Below, piece by piece: positions 38,000-42,474 of a DNA stretch of 43,282 nucleotides. The DNA comes from a virus: positions 1 through 43,282 of the IMG/VR virus record IMGVR_UViG_3300037847_005955; one strand, given 5' to 3'. The position numbers and the translations under genes are program-made. Position 1 is the first letter of the stretch. The number at the start of each line of letters is the position of its first letter. The notes under the pieces were generated by a model. That model did not search any database. It saw nothing but the letters and a program-made list of their open reading frames with translations, and had not been told where the DNA came from.

Positions 38000-38907
38000 A
38001 ACCGAGGACTGCGGACATGGCGCGCGGCAAGTGGCGGGGCATCCTGCTATCGCTGGGCATCGACCAACGGCACCTGACCGGTAAGCACGGCTCCTGCCCG
38101 ATGTGCGAGGGCACCGACCGTTTCCGTTGGGACAACCAGCACGGCAACGGTGGCTATATCTGCAACCAGTGTGGCGCTGGCAACGGCTTTGACTTGCTGA
38201 TGCAGGTTAAGGGCTGGGACTTCGCCACGGCGGCGCAAAAGGTCGATGAGATCGTGGGCAACGTCCAGCGCGAGCCTATGCCGAAGCAGATCGATCAGCG
38301 CACCCGCGCCGATATGCTGAACCGGCTCTGGACTTCGGGCCAGCGCATTACAGCGGGCGATCCGGCATTCGCCTACCTGTCGAGCCGCGCCACGCTGCCC
38401 AAGTCGCTGCCTAGCTGTCTGCGGTTCGTGGCAGAGTGCCCCGCGCCTGATGGTGTGAAGCGCCCCGCCCTCCTGGCACTTGTGCAGGGAGCCGATGGGG
38501 ATGCGGCTAACATACACCGCACGTTCCTTGGCCCAGACGGCAAGGCCGATATGGATAACCCCCGCGCCATGATGCCCGGTTCGCTGCCGGAGGGATCGGC
38601 GGTGCGCCTGTTCCCGGTGCATGGCGAACGGTTGGGCATTGCCGAGGGTATCGAGACGGCTTTCGCCGCCGCCGCAAGGTTCGGCATTCCGGTCTGGAGC
38701 GCGATTAATTCAACGATGCTGTCGAAGTGGACCCCGCCTGCTGGCGTGAAGGAGGTTGCCGTATTCGGTGACTGCGACGCCAAGTTCGGCGGGCAGGCTG
38801 CGGCCTATACCCTTGCGCATCGGTTGGCCGGTCGGATGCGGCTCGATGTGTCGGTTCACATACCGGGGAAGGTCGGTCGCGATTGGGCCGATAGCGATGT
38901 CGCATGA
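37996..38907 (+). CDS. Primase-like protein with zinc finger and Toprim domain
   Basis: 303 residues from ATG 37996 (ATGA overlap with helicase stop). N-terminal P4-alpha-type zinc ribbon: GKHGSCPMCEGTDRFRWDNQ then YICNQCGAGNG. Toprim domain in the second half: RLGIAEGIETAFAAAARFGI (Glu in AEG) and AVFGDCDAKFGGQAAAYTLA (the D-x-D motif). It lays down primers for replication. The C-terminus ends at WADSDVA. Lacks a helicase domain, supplied by the upstream gene. Confidence 0.85.
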   Translation: MKPRTADMARGKWRGILLSLGIDQRHLTGKHGSCPMCEGTDRFRWDNQHGNGGYICNQCGAGNGFDLLMQVKGWDFATAAQKVDEIVGNVQREPMPKQIDQRTRADMLNRLWTSGQRITAGDPAFAYLSSRATLPKSLPSCLRFVAECPAPDGVKRPALLALVQGADGDAANIHRTFLGPDGKADMDNPRAMMPGSLPEGSAVRLFPVHGERLGIAEGIETAFAAAARFGIPVWSAINSTMLSKWTPPAGVKEVAVFGDCDAKFGGQAAAYTLAHRLAGRMRLDVSVHIPGKVGRDWADSDVA

Positions 38908-39068
38908 AGGTTGGCGAAGGTGCGGGGAAGTTCATCGCGGACTGCTTCGGCAACGAGCCGACCGAAGTCATCCGCCAACGCTGGAAAGACGGCGAATACG
39001 GAACCGGCAATTTGGCCCCAAGGGCGGATTACGTGAAGGCATGGATGAAACAGGCGGGGAGGAAGTGA
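38904..39068 (+). CDS. Small hypothetical protein
   Basis: 54 residues, ATGA overlap with the primase stop. MKVGEGAGKFIADCFGNEPT then ...YGTGNLAPRADYVKAWMKQA. Basic and helical. TGATG links it to the next gene, so it belongs to the replication chain. Function unknown. Confidence 0.55.
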   Translation: MKVGEGAGKFIADCFGNEPTEVIRQRWKDGEYGTGNLAPRADYVKAWMKQAGRK

Positions 39069-39916
39069 TGGAAGCAGTATGGAAGAACCACAACCCGCTA
39101 CTTTCGCGGCCCATTCTTAACCCGACGATGCGGGTGGTTTCGCATGGCGGCGGGGTGCAGACGTCTACGTTGCTCGTCATGGCCGCGCGTGGCGACATCG
39201 GGCCGATGCCAGATGCCGCAATTGTCGCTGATACGGGCGACGAGCCGAAGGAGGTGTGGGAGTATCTTGATTACATCGAGCCGATGATCCCGTTCCCCAT
39301 CTACAAGGTGCAGCGCGGGGACATAATCCAACACATCAAGCGGGGCAAGAACCCGAATGACATAGGCCAGCGCGCCACCCTCCCTCTCTACTTGCAGGAT
39401 GGGGGGCAGATGATGCGGACATGCACAGCCTCGCTCAAGATTGACGCTGTGACCGCTAAAATCCGCGAGATGATGGGGCTGACTAAGGGGCAGAAGCCGC
39501 CGAAGGATACGCTTGTTGAGGTGTGGATCGGCATCAGTATGGACGAGAAGCGCCGCGCTGGAGGATTTCCGGCAAAGCCCTGGCAGTCCGTGCGTTACCC
39601 CCTGCTTGAAGCCGATATGACGCGAGGCGATTGCGAACGGTATCTTGCGGAGCGACAAATCAAAATCCCGCCGCGTTCTCGCTGTCGGATATGCCCTTAT
39701 CGCAGTGACGAGAGCTGGCGCGAACTTTCGCCGGAAGATTTTGAACACGCCTGTCGCGTGGATGACATGATGCGTGAGGGCGGCACCCCTCTAAAGGGCA
39801 TGGACAGCCTTGCCTACCTCCATCGGGATAGGAAGCCGCTGCGCGATGTCGATCTTACCGCCCCCAGCATGGGGCTGCCCCTTGAAGACGATTGCTTTGG
39901 AGTATGCGGAACATGA
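39068..39916 (+). CDS. PAPS-reductase-like PP-loop protein
   Basis: 282 residues from ATG 39068. PP-loop variant VVSHGGGVQTSTLLVMAARG near residue 23-42 (SGG.DS-like), AAIVADTGDEPKEVWEYLDY following, as in the phosphoadenosine phosphosulfate reductase / DndC-like family. Cys pairs RCRICPYRSDESWREL and DDCFGVCG near the C-terminus could hold zinc or iron-sulfur. In phages the true reaction of this group is not known; DNA or tRNA modification is possible. It stands two genes before a DNA methyltransferase. Frame is open upstream but that part overlaps the primase. Confidence 0.72.
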   Translation: MEAVWKNHNPLLSRPILNPTMRVVSHGGGVQTSTLLVMAARGDIGPMPDAAIVADTGDEPKEVWEYLDYIEPMIPFPIYKVQRGDIIQHIKRGKNPNDIGQRATLPLYLQDGGQMMRTCTASLKIDAVTAKIREMMGLTKGQKPPKDTLVEVWIGISMDEKRRAGGFPAKPWQSVRYPLLEADMTRGDCERYLAERQIKIPPRSRCRICPYRSDESWRELSPEDFEHACRVDDMMREGGTPLKGMDSLAYLHRDRKPLRDVDLTAPSMGLPLEDDCFGVCGT

Positions 39917-40239
39917 CACGTGCGGAAACGATAAGCTATCCGGTGCAGATTTGGATTGCAGGCGATCACGCAAAGGCGATCGAGACATGCCGCTCCTATT
40001 GTGATGAAATGGGGTTCTGCGTCACGGTTACGCCGACCACCTACGTCTACACTGGCGGGCAAGAGGCGGGAGTCTGCATCGGGCTAATCAACTATGGGCG
40101 TTTTCCCTCCGAACCACGCTCGATCTTCAACCGCGCTCGCGAGATTGGCGATGTGCTTTTGAAGGCGCTGGGCAGAAATCATACACCATCCAAGCGCCAG
40201 ACAGGACGCTTTGGATTAGCCATCGAGAGCGCCGCCTAA
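39913..40239 (+). CDS. Small hypothetical protein
   Basis: 108 residues from ATG 39913 (ATGA overlap). YPVQIWIAGDHAKAIETCRS, then VTVTPTTYVYTGGQEAGVCI and RAREIGDVLLKALGR suggest an alpha/beta fold. I recognise the style from alphaproteobacterial phages, without function. Coupled by TAATG to the methyltransferase. Confidence 0.6.
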   Translation: MTRAETISYPVQIWIAGDHAKAIETCRSYCDEMGFCVTVTPTTYVYTGGQEAGVCIGLINYGRFPSEPRSIFNRAREIGDVLLKALGRNHTPSKRQTGRFGLAIESAA

Positions 40240-41141
40240 TGGCTGAGGACATCATCAAGTATCAGGAGGGCCGAGAGGCAGCGATACGCGGGCGCAAGCT
40301 TCGGGTGCTGGATCTCTTCAGCGGCATAGGCGGCTTCTCCCTCGGCCTTGAACGCGCAACAATGGAAGGTGCTGAGTATGTCGGCTTCGAAACAACGGCG
40401 TTCTGCGAAATCGAAGAGTTCCCCCGCAAAGTCCTCGCCAAGCACTGGCCCGATGTGTCCTGCTACCGAGACGTGCGAGAGCTTACCGCAGAGCGACTTG
40501 CTGCCGATGGAATTGCCGTCGATGTCATCTGCGGAGGGTTCCCCTGCCAGGACCTATCGACGAGCGGAACGGGACTTGGCCTTGCTGGTGAGCGAAGCGG
40601 GTTATGGTCTGAGTTCAAGAGGCTCATTCGCGACATTCGACCAAGCTACGTTGTCTTGGAAAACAGCCCAGAGCTGCTTGATGGGTGGTTGGGAGACGTT
40701 GTCGGGCCGCTGGCCTCGTTCGGGTATGACGCGGAGTGGGACTGCATACCAGCGAGCGCCGTTGGTGCCCCTCACCGCCGCGACCGCATCTGGCTTATTG
40801 CCTACCCCTCTGGCGGGGGACAATCGCAGTCGTGGGGATGTCTCAACACCGTGCATCCAGCGTCGGATGCGTATCGGGAAGCAGATCATGTTGTCGATGC
40901 TGTTCAAAGGCGCGCCCTGCCCTTCGTGTGTGGAAGGCATGATGGGCTTCCCGGAGGGGTGGACCGCCTTAAAGCCCTCGGAAACGCAGTAGTGCCCCAA
41001 ATTCCCGAGCTAATCGGACGGGCAATTCTAGCTGCGCAAAACACCACGATACGCGGGGATAAACGCGACGCACGCAAGCATTCTGACTGGCTGGAAGGCT
41101 ATGATGCAGTCCGGCCCACCAGCACAGCGGGAAGGGAATAG
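40239..41141 (+). CDS. C5 cytosine DNA methyltransferase
   Basis: 300 residues. All main motifs visible: I LDLFSGIGGFSLGL (24-37), IV GGFPCQDLS with catalytic Cys103, VI LENSPELL (Glu141), VIII SAVGAPHRRDRIWLI, X VDRLKALGNAVVPQ. The part between motif VIII and the GRHDGLPGG element before motif X is only about 50 residues, so the target recognition domain is very short. It probably protects phage DNA from host restriction. A second open frame of 214 codons runs inside it (40348-40992). No matching restriction gene is present. Confidence 0.92.
   Translation: MAEDIIKYQEGREAAIRGRKLRVLDLFSGIGGFSLGLERATMEGAEYVGFETTAFCEIEEFPRKVLAKHWPDVSCYRDVRELTAERLAADGIAVDVICGGFPCQDLSTSGTGLGLAGERSGLWSEFKRLIRDIRPSYVVLENSPELLDGWLGDVVGPLASFGYDAEWDCIPASAVGAPHRRDRIWLIAYPSGGGQSQSWGCLNTVHPASDAYREADHVVDAVQRRALPFVCGRHDGLPGGVDRLKALGNAVVPQIPELIGRAILAAQNTTIRGDKRDARKHSDWLEGYDAVRPTSTAGRE
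40348..40992 (+). other. Long +1 open frame inside the methyltransferase gene
   Basis: 214 codons in the +1 frame of the methyltransferase gene. It reads, for example, SPARTYRRAERDLALL, WKTAQSCLMGGWETLS, WPRSGMTRSGTAYQRA and MGFPEGWTALKPSETQ. I have seen very similar proteins listed as separate phage methyltransferase-related proteins; each such motif is the shifted reading of a C5 motif (SPART against FPCQD, WKTAQ against LENSP). It may be true overprinting or a database artefact. No good ribosome site is visible. Confidence 0.3.
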
Positions 41142-41144
41142 AAC

Positions 41145-41732
41145 ATGGCACGACGCGGACGGCCTCGCAAAGCGGGCAAGCGCACAGCAAGCGGACGCCT
41201 CAAGGCTCAGCCTGTGACCTTCGACAAGGGCACCGAGCGCACACAGGACAAGTTCAGCGTTTATGGCGCAGACGGGTCCGACGCCATCGGCAGGGCCTAC
41301 GTCATGGGCCTCCTGGGGGCAGACAGCAACGGGCATCCGACGAGCGAGGCGCTTGACCTGCGCAACCTCGCCCGCAAGATACACCGCGCCTACTGGCCTA
41401 TGCTGGCGGTAGGGCGCGAGAAGTCATGCCTTGGCCTCGACATCAACGGGCAGGCGGTAAACGACAACCTGCTCGACCCAGAGGAACGCGAATACAAGAT
41501 CAAGCGCGAAAAGCGCCTGACGGACACCCTGCGGACGGTGGAGCGGATGTCCCGCCAGCACCGCAAGGCATTCGATGACTTGTGCATCGAGCTGCACCCT
41601 GACTGCGGTCCCGTATGGCTGGACGCATTGATCTGGGCAAAGCGCCACGGCAAGGCTGCGGATCGTGCTGACGAACAGGCGATCAAGCGCGCAATCGAGG
41701 CATTGGAACAAATCGGGCCGAAATGGGGATAG
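41145..41732 (+). CDS. Hypothetical protein at the end of the rightward operon
   Basis: 195 residues. Very basic start (MARRGRPRKAGKRTASGRLK) that could bind nucleic acid, then DAIGRAYVMGLLG and a helical body (YKIKREKRLTDTLRTVERMS, KAFDDLCIELHPDCGPVWLD). I know the style from alphaproteobacterial phages but no function. Last gene before the hairpin-rich gap, in the slot where lambda keeps the late regulator Q; a regulator role is only a thought. GGGAAGG at 41130-41136 is the ribosome site. Confidence 0.6.
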   Translation: MARRGRPRKAGKRTASGRLKAQPVTFDKGTERTQDKFSVYGADGSDAIGRAYVMGLLGADSNGHPTSEALDLRNLARKIHRAYWPMLAVGREKSCLGLDINGQAVNDNLLDPEEREYKIKREKRLTDTLRTVERMSRQHRKAFDDLCIELHPDCGPVWLDALIWAKRHGKAADRADEQAIKRAIEALEQIGPKWG

Positions 41733-41758
41733 AAACGCAAACGGATGCAGAACAGGGG

Positions 41759-41787
41759 TTGACCACTGCCTGAAAAGCTGCTATGCG
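41759..41787 (+). promoter_or_regulatory. Promoter candidate before the hairpin-rich region
   Basis: TTGACC (41759-41764), 17-base spacer, TATGCG (41782-41787). Good -35, moderate -10. Transcription would start near 41794 and meet no clear ribosome site before the terminator at 42064-42104. Confidence 0.4.
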
Positions 41788-41789
41788 CG

Positions 41790-42105
41790 TAAATGATATT
41801 CGGAATTGTGCCTATTGCCCGTTAGGTGTGAGGCGCAACCGAAGCGAGATTGCAGGACGGTCCCCGCTCTATAGCGGGCGGTGTGGCTTCCTGCTTCAAG
41901 ATTGCTGCGGAGTATGCAGGTCGGTTGGGGAACCTGCGCCGGGTATCGCTTAGCGAGTGGAACCCAACCCCGCCCGGCCCGCAGCATACCATGTTCCCGC
42001 TCTGCTTCGGCATCGGGCTTTAAGTCCTAGTTCGCTAGGCCGCAGGGATGGCCTCCTGCGTAGGCCCTCCCCTCTGTTGCCACGGCACAAGGGAGGGCAT
42101 TTTTG
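41790..42105 (+). ncRNA. Candidate structured non-coding RNA
   Basis: About 310 bases between promoter candidate and strong terminator, with a series of perfect stems: CCCGCT/AGCGGG (41863-41878); CCTGC/GCAGG (41890-41920); GGTTGGG/CCCAACC (41923-41969) enclosing TCGC/GCGA (41946-41956); CCTAG-TTCG-CTAGG (42026-42039); CGCAGG/CCTGCG (42041-42060); then the terminator stem. No gene with a ribosome site fits. It is not a tRNA, and I see no tmRNA or RNase P landmarks. A coding reading of 56 Cys-rich codons from ATG 41783 exists and is the main alternative. Confidence 0.4.
42064..42104 (+). terminator. Rho-independent terminator
   Basis: GCCCTCCC (42064-42071) pairs with GGGAGGGC (42091-42098), followed by ATTTTTG. 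An 8-bp GC-rich stem with a T-tract: the clearest terminator in the window. It ends the rightward operon or the candidate ncRNA. Confidence 0.85.
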
Positions 42106-42213
42106 CATTGGCCAGCGTCCTTATTGCGACAAGGCCAGCCCGCACCTCGAAAAGCACCGATCACGGACCCTAGTGGGATAGCGTTGGTAGCGGGCAAACA
42201 TACGGAGGGCCTG

Positions 42214-42474
42214 ATGGACCTCAAGCACTTCGAGAAAGCGATAGAGGATCTGCGCAAGGCCAATGAGTGCTGCGCGGCTGCTGCTATGGACGTTGCCGAC
42301 GTAGAGGGCTGCATCGAGGTGTATCAGCGGAAACTGGAGGCGTCGAAGGAACGGCTTGCTGAGCAGGCCAAGCTGGCGTCGGATGCTCGCAAGCGCGTTG
42401 ACGCAATGGTCGAGGTGGCAGTCGAGCCTGCGATACTGATGCTGTGTGATGGCGCACCAAGTGGCAAAGCGTAA
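42214..42474 (+). CDS. Small coiled-coil protein
   Basis: 86 residues from ATG 42214; GGAGGG at 42203-42208 lies 5 bases upstream. Nearly all helical (DLKHFEKAIEDLRKANECCA, then IEVYQRKLEASKERLAEQAK), so probably a coiled coil. First gene after the terminator, so it must have its own start of transcription or depend on read-through. Lies in the block leading to terS. Unknown function. Confidence 0.6.
   Translation: MDLKHFEKAIEDLRKANECCAAAAMDVADVEGCIEVYQRKLEASKERLAEQAKLASDARKRVDAMVEVAVEPAILMLCDGAPSGKA

Follow-up and report, generated by a model that had tools for sequence, protein, structure and literature searches.

The DNA analyzed here as the window (43,282 nucleotides, viral record G000) contains near its 3' end a gap without obvious genes, described below as a leader; the parts of the leader, ORF195 and the first gene after the leader lie on the plus strand. 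Upstream of the gap are found a phage-borne gene for a phosphoadenosine phosphosulfate reductase-like protein (38900-39913, PHROG 424), a DNA methyltransferase gene downstream of it (40239-41141) and ORF195 (41145-41732), the last early gene and a candidate late regulator or antiterminator. Between the ORF195 stop at 41732 and the next ATG at 42214 no plausibly started gene could be read in the sequence, which bears out the claim of the earlier note that 41733-42213 holds no convincing gene. The first gene 3' of the leader in the ORF list (42214-42474) encodes 86 aa with a weak match to PHROG 10546, and different genes occupy this place in the relatives L004, L005, L027, L035 and L037. Small ORFs and an HNH gene lie between the leader and TerS. 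Since TerS (38-445) and TerL (442-2118) are located at the opposite end of the window and the HNH gene is joined to TerS in a sister prophage that shares the contig, the gap is placed after the last early gene and ahead of the packaging region.

Homologues of ORF195 with 43-91% identity were present in seven loci, and searches with this protein supplied the relatives L003-L007 and later L011, L017 and L018, L003 being the window's own locus within an 83-kb contig. ORF195 had no match in Pfam, PHROG or PDB, its predicted helical fold (AlphaFold, pLDDT 75) had no Foldseek match at E<=0.001, and isolated phage genomes contained no relative of it; for the leader, these genomes likewise yielded chance-level matches only. 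A remote look-alike of ORF195 precedes the leader of the G017 prophage. L027, a second related prophage on the contig of L003, and L037, which lies on another contig, encode an unrelated protein of 207/222 aa in place of ORF195 and keep a similar leader; an AlphaFold model of this other regulator, built from two sequences, reached a pLDDT of 45 and was unusable. DNA patterns of the 5' and 3' elements retrieved no further leaders from IMG/VR except the partial L035. Several side observations were made at these loci. The 83-kb contig (IMGVR_UViG_2811995091_000080; L003/L027) carries two related prophages in tandem, which share about 95% identity over the first packaging genes and differ in late regulators and leaders. 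At L006:3620-4285 an ORF that begins at the expected transcription start (leaderless) and appears GIY-YIG-like by eye takes the place of the leader RNA immediately after the promoter, and at L017:4580-5130 a small HTH repressor-like gene, perhaps an autoregulated repressor, lies 3' of the ORF195 homologue between two GGACATAATGTCC-palindrome promoters.

The conserved frame of the leader

Among the Sphingomonas-type phages the parts follow a common order: last early gene, TTGAC-17-TATG promoter, 5' hairpin A/B, a slot, usually a hairpin-T terminator, element C and the first late-side gene. The promoter-like pair pointed out by the earlier note, TTGACC (41759-41764) and TATGCG (41782-41787) separated by 17 nt, was read in the sequence and belongs to a pattern, TTGAC(A/C/T)-17 nt-TATGSS, that occurs shortly past the regulator stop in the window, L004, L005, L006, L027 and L037; L007 has TTGACA-17-GATTGT after its regulator gene. 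Pairwise identity over eight loci was 77% for the hexamers vs 32% for the spacer, a contrast that is partly built in because the hexamers were picked for their match. Taken alone, the promoter of the window was not above chance when compared with shuffles (p=0.32), and a strict promoter scan of the window missed the TTGACC-17-TATGCG pair. It is the comparable hexamers and spacing in relatives that support this promoter (41759-41787), and transcription probably starts here. The spacer, where Q-type switches have a binding element for the regulator, is alike in the window and L004 and different in L005, where it contains an inverted repeat (GCAGG/CCTGC). GATATT at 41795-41800, which is not kept in L027, could serve as a -10-like pause element.

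The 5' hairpin A/B (41801-41853) reads CGG-AA-UUGUGCCU ... AGGCGCAA-CCG followed by AAGCGAGAUUGC, with the UUGUGCCU/AGGCGCAA stem spanning 41806-41838. Its shared form is UUGYGCC...GGCGCAA, in which pairing is kept through a U-G to C-G change. The 3' half of A/B and the bases next to it are nearly identical in five leaders (window, L004, L005, L027 and L037), while the loop, short in the first three, is enlarged in L027 and L037 by about 40 nt that are themselves folded. In these two leaders with the unrelated regulator the promoter-near half of A/B differs, and the remaining A/B and C are retained. As the unit is comparable across phages with two unrelated regulators, its regulator-responsive parts should be separable from the rest. 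A/B and C are kept at the nucleotide level, while the preceding gene, the slot and the following gene are exchanged. No reading frame through B was common to the relatives, and the element-B pattern with up to two mismatches was absent from 398 Sphingomonadaceae genomes.

The predicted intrinsic terminator T1 (42064-42104; fold z -2.56) consists of a GCCCUCCCCU/AAGGGAGGGC stem at 42064-42098 followed by A and T5, and was missed by the strict scan because of the loop limit of 8. A near-identical T1 precedes C in L035, and other terminators were observed at its place in L004 (two), L027 and L037, with four unrelated hairpin-T kinds across the leaders. The terminator lies directly 3' of the promoter in L007 and the G017 prophage, the leader of an Endozoicomonas phage-plasmid also has one, and none was recognisable in the leaders of L005 and G153. 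From the positions of promoter and terminator, the terminated leader RNA would span 41794-42104, an estimated length of about 311 nt that agrees with the transcript of about 310 nt proposed earlier.

Element C (42110-42201), with a small hairpin (GGCC/GGCC) and a long stem (GCCCGC/GCGGGC), adjoins the Shine-Dalgarno sequence of the next gene. The seven copies in six leaders contain one fully compensatory pair and are mostly invariant, so that the stem is plausible, though variation has put it to little test. Terminator and C were combined as T1+C1 (window and L035), T2+C1 (L037), T3+C1 and T2+C2 (L004), T4+C2b (L027) and C2 alone (L005). Matches to the C pattern in L033 and L034 and to the C 3' end in L038-L060 except L046 lacked the rest of C and were set aside as chance-like.

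The whole stretch folded no better than its shuffles (z -0.88), no Rfam 15 family reached its gathering score in the window, and a tRNA/tmRNA search of the window returned none. With promoter and whole fold alone at chance level, the stretch stands above chance because it is conserved in relatives; this comparison establishes, at the level of sequence, the promoter, hairpins, terminator and C as well as the exchange of modules. Stems in series, of which the earlier note counted at least six perfect ones, were read between 41806 and 42098, the A/B stem with one G-U.

The variable slot and module E

The slot of the window contains a 93-nt stem and then module E. A 52-nt insert (41854-41905), which ends in a GATTGC repeat and includes the hairpin CCCGCU/AGCGGG (41864-41879), is present in L005 and not in L004. 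The cargo stem UGCUGCGG/CCGCAGCA with an inner hairpin (41903-41986; fold z -1.70) encloses a candidate pseudoknot, seen by eye, of GGUUGGG (41923-41929) with CCCAACC (41963-41969). A further hairpin predicted by folding, CGCAGG/CCUGCG (42041-42060), lies between E and the terminator, and a stem GCAGGU/ACCUGC was also read in the stem series of the window. Homologue searches with the cargo stem found none, and no stable RNA in 80 genomes matched the cargo as a possible host source; two other weak matches from this search, L065 and L066, fall within apparent genes and were dropped.

Host-RNA-like cargo was observed in the slots of relatives. L037 carries a complete tRNA-Met gene, the sole Rfam match above cut-off among the window and the leaders; its better matches to host tRNA genes had 82-88% identity with the alignment limited to the tRNA, and its first two acceptor pairs are mismatched. 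L004 has a T-arm piece and, 74 nt further on, a D-arm piece in permuted order, the latter with 24 nt identical to host sequences, and L005 has 35 nt of 16S rRNA with 94% identity to the best host copy. To judge from these sequences, related phages most likely swap interchangeable folded RNA pieces in the leader, and such a modular make-up is new. The earlier note had proposed a possible new non-coding RNA. A structured non-coding transcript in the late-control position is upheld by the relatives, in which the promoter and both the 5' hairpin and the 3' element are kept, as is a terminator in most cases. One self-contained RNA gene fits less well than a late-operon leader of exchangeable modules, because the nearest relatives do not conserve the middle (41854-42060) save for the insert shared with L005.

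Module E (41994-42043), recognized by recurrence and covariation, consists of a hairpin (CCCG-CUCU-GC-UUCG-GC-AU-CGGG), a linker (CUUNNAG) and a second hairpin, which is CCUAG/CUAGG at 42026-42039 in the window. A 25-mer of E is exact in G017, G153, the Endozoicomonas phage-plasmid and a Sphingomonas plasmid. The first hairpin is invariant; the second varies in sequence in most copies and always pairs. Both-sided compensatory changes in helix 2 were counted in five of five pairs after loops and one linker base had been trimmed by hand, and a separate test against shuffles gave p=0.002. Compensatory changes of the kind the earlier note had looked to for support were thus found in module E and in one pair of C, A/B showing only a G-U/G-C change.

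In a prophage of genome G017 E is preceded by the remote ORF195-like gene, a promoter (TTGACA) and a terminator with T6, and terminase genes follow; in an apparent prophage of genome G153 E comes after a TTGACG-17-TATATC promoter, in the Endozoicomonas phage-plasmid it lies upstream of terminase, and in the Sphingomonas plasmid it has a promoter and a terminator of its own and lies upstream of recF. On this last element (Sphingomonas parapaucimobilis plasmid NZ_CP155755.1, L068:2960-3150), where a PemK/MazF-type gene is located on the other side, E has the look of a small RNA, about 115 nt long. E is rare, with exact copies in two places among 398 Sphingomonadaceae genomes and none with up to one mismatch in 240 genomes of the same class outside the Sphingomonadaceae; E. 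coli genomes contained none, phage records gave chance-level matches only and Rfam gave no match. E is an RNA motif with covariation that is not in Rfam and is common to alpha- and gammaproteobacterial elements; together with the slot holding tRNA-/rRNA-like pieces it is what is new here.

A probable late-gene switch and its alternatives

In our view the gap is, with moderate probability, a pR'-tR'-type untranslated leader that serves the late (packaging/morphogenesis) operon and is read through via ORF195 or a partner. The arrangement is as in lambdoid pR'-tR' and near that of the Caulobacter GTA, for which reason the leader is taken as a late antitermination switch with ORF195 as the likeliest regulator. 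A housekeeping-type promoter after the last early gene would start a structured RNA of about 310 nt that would normally stop at the intrinsic terminator. After induction, the ORF195 product or a partner would load at or near the promoter and modify RNA polymerase, which would then pass the terminator and allow expression of the downstream late genes, by antitermination rather than plain activation. The modules between promoter and terminator would act as exchangeable cargo keeping the untranslated leader folded, with the 5' hairpin and element C as its conserved parts. As in pR'-tR', a regulator gene adjoins the promoter ahead of the late genes, a likeness of position, and an intrinsic terminator lies within the untranslated leader of the window and most relatives. 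ORF195 falls into no known Q family by Pfam, PHROG, PDB or fold, and since it lies outside known families we claim no Q family membership. Against this reading count the leaders of L005 and G153 with no recognisable terminator, the missing family match of ORF195, the chance-level score of the promoter by itself and the strong conservation of element C 3' of the terminator, which the reading leaves unaccounted for.

Alternatively, this might be a new kind of late leader RNA in which the fixed 5' hairpin and 3' element frame a slot for the portable E or for structured RNA that comes from host stable RNA (tRNA, rRNA) or imitates it, with cargo functional in its own right, e.g. in sustaining elongation by RNA polymerase or in engaging host RNases and defences; we regard this as unlikely. 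A somewhat smaller chance is given to a trans-acting RNA or decoy, in which the terminated 310-nt RNA would accumulate late and its tRNA/rRNA-like cargo would occupy host nucleases, RNA-binding proteins or tRNA-damage defence sensors. The tRNA-Met, the permuted Y-RNA-like T-/D-arm pieces and the 16S rRNA piece in one and the same slot fit this, but the cargo of the window matches no stable host RNA, the cargos have no common sequence or size and no known target, and the L004 match to YrlA (RF02553) is far under the gathering score (26 bits vs 69) and was dropped on that score.

A cis-acting RNA antiterminator, in which the 5' hairpin or E would lift the terminator block by binding to RNA polymerase or to a host factor and without a phage protein, is improbable. 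HK022 put, an RNA that acts in this way (PMC9378689), provides a precedent. Directly 3' of the promoter lies A/B, which phages with different regulators have in common. E is kept, with compensatory change, in phages whose hosts belong to different classes, and an intrinsic terminator comes after it in three cases (window, Sphingomonas plasmid and Endozoicomonas leader). Rfam offers no match, however, and the terminator immediately after the promoter in L007 and G017 leaves A/B no space. Just as improbable is a neutral slot, in which illegitimate recombination leaves arbitrary DNA and only the promoter, the terminator and perhaps C matter. While the varied combinations of four terminator and three C types, the GATTGC repeats flanking the 52-nt insert and the mismatched acceptor ends of the L037 tRNA would be consistent with it, three cargos that are structured stable RNA pieces and 25 nt of module E shared without mismatch by distant phages are not expected of random capture.

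A short protein, encoded by the frame ATGCGCGTAAATGAT... at 41783 or a GTG frame at 41957-42181, is largely refuted and very improbable: the former is open in the window, L004 and L005, but its ATG overlaps the -10 hexamer, stops just ahead of B in L027 and L037 contradict coding, as does the sole substitution seen in B, which is non-synonymous in the window's open frame, and the GTG frame is not present in relatives. Judged by conservation among relatives, the gap is a genuine, non-coding, structured late-control region.

Comparison with known systems

Outside gene transfer agents, little is known of how alphaproteobacterial phages switch on their late genes, and the tRNA-/rRNA-like slot raises the testable question of what the leader gains from such pieces. 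The L004 leader, and it alone, shares with YrlA/bacterial Y RNA the permuted order of T-arm and then D-arm, but has a long insert, and the likeness is absent from the window. Like HK022 put, the leader would be a structured RNA directly after a phage promoter and upstream of terminators; put, however, belongs to the early operon, no family match was found here, and action of the RNA alone is improbable at this locus. The late antitermination switch that we favour comes closer to two other systems. In the Caulobacter GTA cluster GafZ, which has no similarity to Q, antiterminates and may also help polymerase to traverse an untranslated leader of 229 nt (PMC11150451). This GafYZ system has in common with the window an alphaproteobacterial phage-like late cluster, a long untranslated leader and a terminator passed with a non-Q antiterminator, but its terminator comes after the first gene, and the likeness is one of arrangement. 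Phage 21 and lambda use a pR'-tR' late switch with Q (PMC6606751), in which, as here, an upstream regulator gene is followed by a promoter, an untranslated leader with an intrinsic terminator and the late genes, whereas ORF195 is no recognisable Q, and the leader of the window differs further by its long structured modules, which are exchangeable, and by an element that is conserved past the terminator. By analogy of arrangement, the proposed switch as a whole resembles these known phage late-gene switches.
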